A stretch of DNA of 57,889 bases from an uncultured Campylobacterales bacterium (GTDB taxonomy: Bacteria; Campylobacterota; Campylobacteria; Campylobacterales; Arcobacteraceae), in NCBI GenBank assembly GCA_905479135.1, contig CAJQLJ010000032.1:1-57889 (forward strand). Reading direction: 5' to 3'. Position 1 is the stretch's first letter. Each line of letters opens with the position of its first letter. The notes under the pieces were generated by a model. That model did no database searches. It worked only from the letters and a program-made list of their open reading frames with translations, and had not been told where the DNA came from. Positions 33,252 to 35,228 of the stretch are shown here, in pieces. A program made the position numbers and the translations under genes.

Positions 33252-33278
33252 TTAGCACTCCTTTAGTATAACTGCTAA
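33252..33278 (-). promoter_or_regulatory. CIRCE-like HrcA operator at clpB
   Basis: TTAGCACTC-N9-AACTGCTAA compared with the CIRCE consensus TTAGCACTC-N9-GAGTGCTAA: the left arm is perfect and the right arm matches at 7 of 9. It overlaps the predicted transcription start and contains the clpB Shine-Dalgarno (AGGAG on the minus strand), one base from the ATG. Confidence 0.75.
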
Positions 33279-33282
33279 AATA

Positions 33283-33312
33283 ATTATAGCACCTTGAGCG
33301 CATCTTTGTCAA
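33283..33312 (-). promoter_or_regulatory. Near-consensus sigma-70 promoter of clpB
   Basis: The minus strand reads TTGACA (33312-33307), 18 bases, then TATAAT (33288-33283), with TG one base before the -10 (extended -10). Such a full -35 is unusual in this phylum. Predicted start is near 33276. Confidence 0.8.
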
Positions 33313-33313
33313 G
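33293..33313 (-). promoter_or_regulatory. HAIR-like HspR operator overlapping the clpB -35
   Basis: The minus strand reads CTTGACA-N7-GCTCAAG; the HAIR consensus for HspR is CTTGAGT-N7-ACTCAAG. Outer bases and spacing agree (11 of 14 arm positions). The left arm includes the -35 hexamer, so a bound repressor would block RNA polymerase. Confidence 0.65.
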
Positions 33314-33337
33314 TGTTTTTTATATAAATTCAAATGT

Positions 33338-33343
33338 TATAAT
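33338..33343 (+). promoter_or_regulatory. -10 box of rnhB
   Basis: TATAAT 22 bases before the ATG at 33366 predicts a start near 33350. This rules out the upstream in-frame start at 33294 and supports the shorter RNase HII. It is 25 bases from the clpB -35 on the other strand. Confidence 0.6.
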
Positions 33344-33365: not shown

Positions 33366-33938
33366 ATGTTATGCGGAATAGATGAAGCTGGACGTGGTCC
33401 AATTGCAGGTCCATTAGTAGTTGCTGGAGTTGTAATTAAAAAAAAAATAAAGGGATTAAATGATTCAAAAATTTTAAGTGAAAAAAAAAGAGAAGCTTTA
33501 TTTCCTGAAATTATAGAGAATTCTTCTTACCATATAGTATTTACAACTGCAAAAACTATTGATAAAAAAGGTTTAAGTATTTGTTTAAAAAACTCAATAG
33601 ATGAAATAATGATTAAACTTTCAAAAGATGCAAATAAATTTTTAATGGATGGAAATACTTCATTTGGAATACAAACACTGCAACATAAAATAAAAGCAGA
33701 TGCAACAATTCAAGAAGTAAGTGCTGCTTCTATATTAGCAAAAGTAAGTCGAGATAGATATATGTATGAAATATCAAAAAAGTATCCTGTATATAATTTT
33801 GATAAGCATAAAGGATATGGAACAAAAGCTCATATAGAACTTATTAAAGAATATGGAAGATGTAAAGAACATAGATTTACATTTAAATTAAAAGCTTTAG
33901 GTGAAGATATACAAGGTATACAAAAAAGTTTATTTTAA
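33366..33938 (+). CDS. rnhB: Ribonuclease HII
   Basis: The 190-residue enzyme begins MLCGIDEAGRGPIAGPLVVAGV, the DEAGRG active-site signature of type 2 RNase H, followed by LNDSKILSEKKRE, ASILAKVSRDRYM and the C-terminal KYPVYNFDKHKGYGTKAH. It removes RNA from RNA-DNA hybrids, including single ribonucleotides. A longer frame exists upstream, but AAGGT before 33366 and the -10 at 33338 fix this start. RNase HI (rnhA) is not in the window. Confidence 0.94.
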   Translation: MLCGIDEAGRGPIAGPLVVAGVVIKKKIKGLNDSKILSEKKREALFPEIIENSSYHIVFTTAKTIDKKGLSICLKNSIDEIMIKLSKDANKFLMDGNTSFGIQTLQHKIKADATIQEVSAASILAKVSRDRYMYEISKKYPVYNFDKHKGYGTKAHIELIKEYGRCKEHRFTFKLKALGEDIQGIQKSLF

Positions 33939-34005: not shown

Positions 34006-34344
34006 ATGCAAATTAATGTATCACCTGAAGTAATATTATCTCAACTTGGATATTCTAAAAGTGAATCTTCAATACAACAAGCAGAAAAAATGATTTCATC
34101 TACAAATAATTTTGATAAATTCTCAAAACACATTTTTTCACTAAATGACCATCTGAAAAAAATGAACGCATACGTAGGATTATCAAATAAGACAGATTAT
34201 TTAAAAATCAAATGTGATGAAAATGATGCAGATGAAATTTTAGAAGGATTTCATTATGAAGTTTCACATTGGGCTGGTAAATATAATGTAAAACTTCAAC
34301 AATTAGACAAAAAACCTATTTATTATATTTTAGGAACTATCTAA
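34006..34344 (+). CDS. Conserved-looking small protein of unknown function
   Basis: The 112-residue protein has no signal peptide or membrane segment and no motif that I recognise. It is predicted mostly helical in the first half (SESSIQQAEKMISS, FSKHIFSLNDHLKKMNAYVGL) with beta-like segments near the end (HWAGKYNVKLQQ, PIYYILGTI). A good AAAGGA ribosome site and a TAGAAT -10 at 33974-33979 support real expression. Its stop overlaps the convergent msrA stop by three bases. Codon use looks like its neighbours. Confidence 0.7.
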   Translation: MQINVSPEVILSQLGYSKSESSIQQAEKMISSTNNFDKFSKHIFSLNDHLKKMNAYVGLSNKTDYLKIKCDENDADEILEGFHYEVSHWAGKYNVKLQQLDKKPIYYILGTI

Positions 34345-34832
34345 AATATTTTTCTATAGCTATGACAATAAGGTGTCTTTTGATGCCTTTCATAGTAATC
34401 TTGGTGATATTCTTCGGCCTCATAAAATGGAACCATTTCATAAACTGAAGTTGCTACTTTATAAGCTCTATCCTCTAAGTATTTTATAGTTTTTTCAAGC
34501 ATTTGTTTTTCACTCTCATTATCATAAAAAACTGCAGATAAATATTGACTACCTATATCTGGACCTTGTCCATTTGTTTGAGTGAAATCATGAATTTCAA
34601 AAAAAAGTTTTAGAAGAGTATCATATGAAACTATTGTTTCATCGTATTCGATTTTCACTACTTCTAAATGCCCTGTTCGTCCAGTACAAATATCAGCATA
34701 TGTAGGATTTAATGTATGTCCTCCCATATAACCTGATATTGCAGAATTAACACCTTTTAATTTTTCAAAGTGGTATTCAACACCCCAAAAACAACCCGCT
34801 GCAAAATATGCATTTTTTATATTATTTGTCAT
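34341..34832 (-). CDS. msrA: Peptide methionine-(S)-sulfoxide reductase MsrA
   Basis: The 163-residue enzyme has the catalytic motif AAGCFWGVEYHFEKLKGV (Cys14), SGYMGGHTLNPTY and GQGPDIGSQYLSAVFY, with a C-terminal Cys (TPYCHSY) that could act as resolving residue. It repairs S-methionine sulfoxide in proteins. It follows msrB by 39 bases in the same orientation; the two cover both stereoisomers. Terminal overlap with the preceding plus-strand gene leaves no room for a terminator. Confidence 0.95.
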   Translation of the reverse strand: MTNNIKNAYFAAGCFWGVEYHFEKLKGVNSAISGYMGGHTLNPTYADICTGRTGHLEVVKIEYDETIVSYDTLLKLFFEIHDFTQTNGQGPDIGSQYLSAVFYDNESEKQMLEKTIKYLEDRAYKVATSVYEMVPFYEAEEYHQDYYERHQKTPYCHSYRKIF

Positions 34833-34871
34833 TAATTCCCCTATTTTAATATTATATATTCTACGAATAAA

Positions 34872-35228
34872 TTATTTGCTAAAAGATAGCGATACTGAGT
34901 TAACACAATGTCTAGTATTTTTTGAAGTAAAGCCTTCACCTTCAAATACATGACCTAAGTGCCCTTCACAGTTTGCACAAACTATTTCAACTCTTCTTCC
35001 ATCCAAATCAGTTACTCTTTTAACTGCATTTTCAATATTATCATCAAAACTTGGCCAACCACAACCTGATGAAAATTTTGTATCGGATGTATATAGAGGT
35101 GTATTACATTTTCTACATATAAATACACCTTCTTGATAAAAATCATTGTATTTACCAGAAAAAGGTCTTTCTGTTCCTTTATTTTCTATTACTCTTATTT
35201 CTTCATCATTTAATTTATTAAAATTCAT
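34872..35228 (-). CDS. msrB: Peptide methionine-(R)-sulfoxide reductase MsrB
   Basis: The 118-residue enzyme has two CxxC zinc pairs (CRKC and CANC), SGCGWPSFDD and the catalytic region GEGFTSKNTRHCVNSVSLSF with nucleophile Cys in RHCVNS. It reduces R-methionine sulfoxide. It is slightly short at both ends compared with E. coli MsrB (137). It lies 12 bases after the FAH-family gene and upstream of msrA. Confidence 0.95.
   Translation of the reverse strand: MNFNKLNDEEIRVIENKGTERPFSGKYNDFYQEGVFICRKCNTPLYTSDTKFSSGCGWPSFDDNIENAVKRVTDLDGRRVEIVCANCEGHLGHVFEGEGFTSKNTRHCVNSVSLSFSK

Follow-up and report, generated by a model that had tools for sequence, protein, structure and literature searches.

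How the clpB gene of this member of the Arcobacteraceae is controlled is a question raised by the DNA directly 5′ of it, where two different repeats resembling heat-shock operators share one promoter. The window, i.e., the whole stretch of 57,889 nucleotides that was analysed, corresponds to contig C32 in a draft genome of 1.52 Mb and 88% completeness. On the minus strand, the elements preceding clpB follow one another in the order CTTGACA-AAGATGC-GCTCAAG-GTGC-TATAAT-TATT-TTAGCAGTT-ATACTAAAG-GAGTGCTAA-A-ATG, and their coordinates are collected in Table 1.

Table 1. Features of the clpB promoter region, with positions counted along the window.
Feature	Position	Strand	Basis
clpB, ATP-dependent disaggregase, 860 aa	30668..33250	-	TIGR03346 chaperone_ClpB, E=0
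CIRCE-like repeat TTAGCAGTT-N9-GAGTGCTAA, putative HrcA operator, separated from ATG by 1 nt	33252..33278	-	repeat search
Shine-Dalgarno (SD) AAGGAG, overlaps CIRCE spacer and right arm	33258..33263	-	sequence
Putative transcription start (A/G), within the CIRCE left arm, 7-8 nt downstream of the -10	33275..33276	-	inferred from promoter geometry
-10 element TATAAT, extended TG at 33290-33291	33283..33288	-	consensus scan; conserved
HAIR-like repeat CTTGACA-N7-GCTCAAG, putative HspR operator, with the -35 within its left half	33293..33313	-	repeat search
-35 element TTGACA	33307..33312	-	consensus scan; kept in nearly all relatives
rnhB (presumed ribonuclease HII), neighbouring gene on the far side of a 115-bp gap, divergent	33366..33938	+	ORF

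An earlier sequence-only reading had described this region as a near-consensus promoter with an extended -10, bearing a HAIR-like repeat over its -35 and a CIRCE-like repeat over its start and ribosome site, and had taken the two repeats as operators of HspR and HrcA. The promoter proper bears this description out, as TTGACA and TATAAT, separated by 18 bp, agree with the consensus at 12/12 positions and a TG lies one base before the -10. It ranks first among 38 promoter-like matches in a 6-kb scan, in which every other site scores ≤10.

The CIRCE-like repeat is likewise present as described, spanning the predicted start site to the clpB ribosome site. It departs from the consensus TTAGCACTC-N9-GAGTGCTAA at 2 of 18 positions and retains the N9 spacer. 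With an expectation of 0.01 per window at ≤3 mismatches, the clpB site stands far above chance, and genome-wide only three sites reach this threshold (groES, clpB and hrcA), compared with none in the reversed control. Pairing between its arms is imperfect (7/9 pairs), so that the affinity of HrcA for it may be modest. Among the relatives, the left arm on clpB reads TTAGCA[G/A]TT whenever CIRCE touches the SD, and is of the TTAGCACT type otherwise; the hrcA promoter runs against this pattern, since its left arm is TTAGCAGTT although it lies away from any SD. The idea that the left arm may be asymmetric in order to spare the SD fits clpB and groES and does not fit hrcA.

Taken alone, the HAIR-like repeat is the weaker of the proposed sites. 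It matches the consensus CTTGAGT-N7-ACTCAAG at 11/14 positions, with the N7 spacer, and 2.8 hits with three mismatches are expected in the whole window; it is thus not significant window-wide and needs support from elsewhere. Genome-wide, 61 HAIR-like hits compare with 46 in the reversed control. In 11,200 dinucleotide shuffles of clpB upstream regions, HAIR with ≤3 mismatches arose 132 times, CIRCE with ≤3 mismatches once, and both together never. The left half, CTTGACA, departs from CTTGAGT exactly where the -35 consensus requires. Halves that overlap a -35, on clpB and hrcA, read CTTGACA, whereas the repeats located upstream on groES read CTTTAGT or CTTGAGT; the HAIR half-site therefore appears, from this comparison, to be tailored to serve both polymerase and repressor. 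The support that the repeat needs comes from the family, whose conservation of both putative operators at fixed spacing, set out below, settles that they are real.

The sequence-only reading would have been refuted by the absence of either regulator gene, and this does not occur, as both are encoded in the same genome. The hrcA ORF adjoins and precedes grpE on contig C82. It matches the NCBIfam HrcA family NF003033 (E=4.5e-69, 233 bits, below the model's cut-off of 248), TIGR00331 over its N-terminal part (E=3.6e-23) and the solved HrcA structure 1stz (E=3e-10). The Pfam HrcA model PF01628 matches neither this genome nor any of the relatives (0/60), which is not read as absence of hrcA because the ORF is visible beside grpE and a protein query found the gene in 50/60 relative genomes. 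An annotation based on Pfam would call hrcA absent, as at locus L021 2077-2862. The hspR gene follows cbpA on contig C119 and scores 114.8 bits against NF047375 HspR, above the cut-off of 105. In this genome, the hrcA promoter carries HAIR (CTTGACAAATATACACTCAAT) and CIRCE in the same compact arrangement as clpB, the cbpA promoter has a HAIR with one mismatch upstream and no CIRCE, and the groES promoter has a CIRCE with one mismatch. On cbpA the HAIR reads CTTGATTGACT...GACTCAAG (e.g., L019 around 518-538); its left half holds the beginning of the -35, TTGAC[T/A], offset by 5 nt from the start of HAIR, and the hexamer extends from there into the spacer, a nesting that differs from that on clpB and hrcA.

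The clpB, hrcA, groES and cbpA promoters were gathered from 60 genomes, all of which possess clpB (60/60), and 35 of the clpB promoters belong to the same family. Within it, HAIR is found on clpB in 30/30 hspR-bearing genomes, and CIRCE in 34/34 genomes bearing hrcA against 0/1 without it, the latter being a single contrasting genome. In the hspR-bearing members the -35 invariably begins at the second base of the HAIR, the gap from HAIR to CIRCE is 12-14 bp and that from the -10 to CIRCE is 2-4 bp; the HAIR right half, (A/G)CT(C/A)AA, has 0-1 mismatches in all 30. Across the family genomes, the arms of the clpB CIRCE are conserved and the letters of its spacer vary. Elsewhere in the order, clpB commonly has HAIR, and CIRCE occurs only in G043, which groups with the family on the ClpB tree, and in G045, where it sits upstream of the -35. 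Degenerate CIRCE-like repeats at the clpB SD are also seen in G037, G040 and G054, so that CIRCE on clpB may be older than the family. In several family genomes groES carries a HAIR-like repeat upstream. At hrcA, a second CIRCE lies ~65-85 bp upstream of the first in G022, G017, G030, G031, G014 and G021 (loci L097, L094, L100, L104, L105 and L103).

A protein query and the HspR model, which detects the positive controls, did not find hspR in G014, G015, G021, G031 and G032; the relatives are draft genomes, and some of these gene absences could be assembly gaps. The presence or absence of hspR changes at least three times independently on the ClpB tree, and a sign test cannot reach 0.05 because only three independent hspR contrasts are available. 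In the five hspR-less genomes measured (5/5, G043 included), the right half of the clpB HAIR has 3-5 mismatches. The left half fares differently: CTTGACA persists as the clpB -35 in the hspR-less G014, G021 and G031, and TTTGACA in G043. The clpB CIRCE is retained where hspR was lost and is near-perfect in some of these genomes, and G032, without hspR and hrcA, has neither HAIR nor CIRCE on clpB. Sites and regulators are thus inherited together: across the relatives, the predicted clpB operators track the presence and absence of the corresponding regulator genes. A related pattern is seen on cbpA, where the hspR-less G014, G021 and G031 carry a CIRCE-like site upstream, whereas hspR-bearing genomes have HAIR and no good CIRCE, with the one weak exception of G017 (three mismatches). 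As an exception to the loss of HAIR, the hspR-less G021 keeps a good HAIR right half on its hrcA promoter.

This distribution bears directly on the possibility that only one of the two repressors acts on clpB. In Campylobacter jejuni the clpB promoter is controlled by HspR only (PMC7464140, PMC12131804), and in the majority of the order's other families clpB has HAIR and no CIRCE. By analogy, HspR could be sufficient here too, and the CIRCE-like repeat vestigial or fortuitous. We consider this very unlikely, as a vestige is at odds with a repeat that occurs in every hrcA-bearing family genome, keeps its arms while its spacer varies, disappears with hrcA and persists, in some cases near-perfect, after the loss of hspR. 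The converse possibility, that HrcA alone controls clpB and the likeness to HAIR is a mere by-product of the -35 hexamer, would account for a left half that differs from CTTGAGT precisely at the positions demanded by the -35, and agrees with the lack of window-wide significance. It has no place, however, for the right half, which belongs to no promoter element and yet holds to at most one mismatch in the 30 hspR-bearing family genomes and is gone in all five hspR-less ones measured; we regard it as highly improbable.

Another use of the CIRCE-like repeat would be at the RNA level, mainly as a hairpin that masks the ribosome site in the manner of a thermometer. The repeat does overlap AAGGAG, and in the leader as folded at 30 °C the SD is roughly half unpaired. 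Such a role appears extremely unlikely, in view of a hairpin that is truncated (-5.6 kcal/mol), because the predicted start falls inside the CIRCE left arm, and of several relatives in which the repeat lies upstream of the SD at an unchanged distance from the -10. That the presence of the repeat follows hrcA also speaks against it.

The explanation that we hold with high confidence is that clpB is preceded by a compact two-repressor heat-shock operator, with HspR predicted to act at the HAIR and -35, and HrcA at the CIRCE and start. The two-repressor reading of this promoter proposed earlier gains support from the fact that each predicted site follows its own regulator gene across the relatives. 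In the unstressed cell, HspR, a member of the MerR family, would occupy the HAIR-like repeat containing the -35, and HrcA the CIRCE-like repeat over the predicted start and ribosome site. With the repressors so placed, we propose that both would deny RNA polymerase access to a sigma-70 promoter that is strong in itself. Once heat or the titration of chaperones had inactivated the repressors, clpB would be expressed. HspR and HrcA may also touch one another across the 13-14 bp gap. From this arrangement of sites we infer binding of HspR and HrcA to clpB, joint repression, an order of release, cooperativity and heat induction; the tight heat-shock repression suggested by the sequence-only reading would likewise be a probable outcome of it.

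The same pair of repressors is known from related bacteria. In C. jejuni, the hrcA-grpE-dnaK and groESL promoters are co-repressed by HspR and HrcA, whose footprints lie 11 and 27 bp apart and which interact directly (PMC7464140). As in the present case, both repressors meet there on one sigma-70 heat-shock promoter with HrcA over the start; unlike it, HspR binds upstream of the core, and the targets are hrcA-grpE-dnaK and groESL instead of clpB. On the clpB promoter analysed here no such upstream position is found, since HAIR begins just one nucleotide ahead of the -35 and covers it. The closest characterised clpB promoter, that of C. jejuni, shares the gene and an HspR site overlapping the core promoter, and differs in being HspR-only, with no action of HrcA reported, whereas the present promoter has an additional CIRCE spanning the start and SD (PMC7464140, PMC12131804). 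C. jejuni requires clpB for survival of heat (PMC12131804).

In Helicobacter pylori, the groESL and hrcA operons are under HspR and HrcA, and cbpA-hspR is under HspR alone (PMC6102357). The precedent of joint control invoked by the sequence-only reading therefore stands for these operons, as does the likeness in the repressor pair and in HspR acting alone on cbpA-hspR. It does not extend to a compact double operator on the core, because in both H. pylori and C. jejuni HspR occupies a position upstream of the core on the promoters that it shares with HrcA (PMC6102357, PMC7464140); on the double promoters of H. pylori it binds far upstream, and clpB is outside the direct HspR regulon (PMC6102357). 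The two repressors cooperate in C. jejuni (PMC7464140) and bind independently in H. pylori (PMC6102357). More distant cases, as cited in PMC7464140, are CtsR with HrcA on groESL in Streptococcus pneumoniae and Staphylococcus aureus, and HspR with HrcA on acr2 in Mycobacterium tuberculosis. As far as that citing source describes them, they resemble the present promoter in the overlap of repressor regulons on one chaperone gene, and differ in the gene and, for CtsR, also in the repressor pair. A search of the literature accessible without subscription found no paper treating HrcA and HspR together in Arcobacter-like bacteria and none on a clpB promoter combining HAIR and CIRCE. The double-site layout of clpB, family-wide here, is not described for Campylobacter or Helicobacter. 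The evidence from the relatives points to a conserved, functional-looking double operator that is real, and to a lineage-wide variation on the known HspR/HrcA circuit.

For the history of this circuit we lean, by a little, towards a scenario confined to one family. The HrcA regulon would have grown to take in clpB and, in some of the members, htpG and hsp20 genes as well, and clpB and hrcA would have come to share a standard compact operator pair in which HAIR merges with the -35 and CIRCE lies at +1. After the loss of hspR, HrcA would have taken over targets including cbpA, so that the repressors were swapped and the -35 half-site was left behind. Under the two-repressor reading, two sensors rather than one would govern clpB, and the relatives would offer a natural series, with both repressors, with only HrcA, with only HspR or with neither, for testing promoter sharing and repressor replacement. 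The layout also indicates that one seven-base stretch can be repressor half-site and -35 hexamer together.

Several further observations concern the surroundings of clpB and other heat-shock loci. Homologues of rnhB, a name that we give to the divergent ORF by recognition of its sequence, adjoin clpB in at least 16 of the clpB loci. On the plus strand, rnhB has an extended -10, TG-T-TATAAT, at 33335-33343 and no clear -35; HspR might touch this divergent promoter too, because the HAIR sits just upstream of the rnhB -10. Near clpB, at 34341-35228, lie two tandem ORFs whose sequences we recognise as presumably msrA- and msrB-like. In many family members, CIRCE-like sites occur upstream of htpG-like genes (L348-L351, L353, L354, L356-L358 and L360), i.e., HSP90-type ATPases named from the N-terminus, and in most cases another conserved repeat, AAACTTTAGC...TATAAAGTTT, comes after them close to the -10. 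At the hsp20 genes L342, L343, L345 and L359, the upstream CIRCE encloses TTGACAA in register with a -10, the -35 hexamer being nested within the operator, and 3/4 of these loci have a second CIRCE-like repeat ~30 bp upstream.
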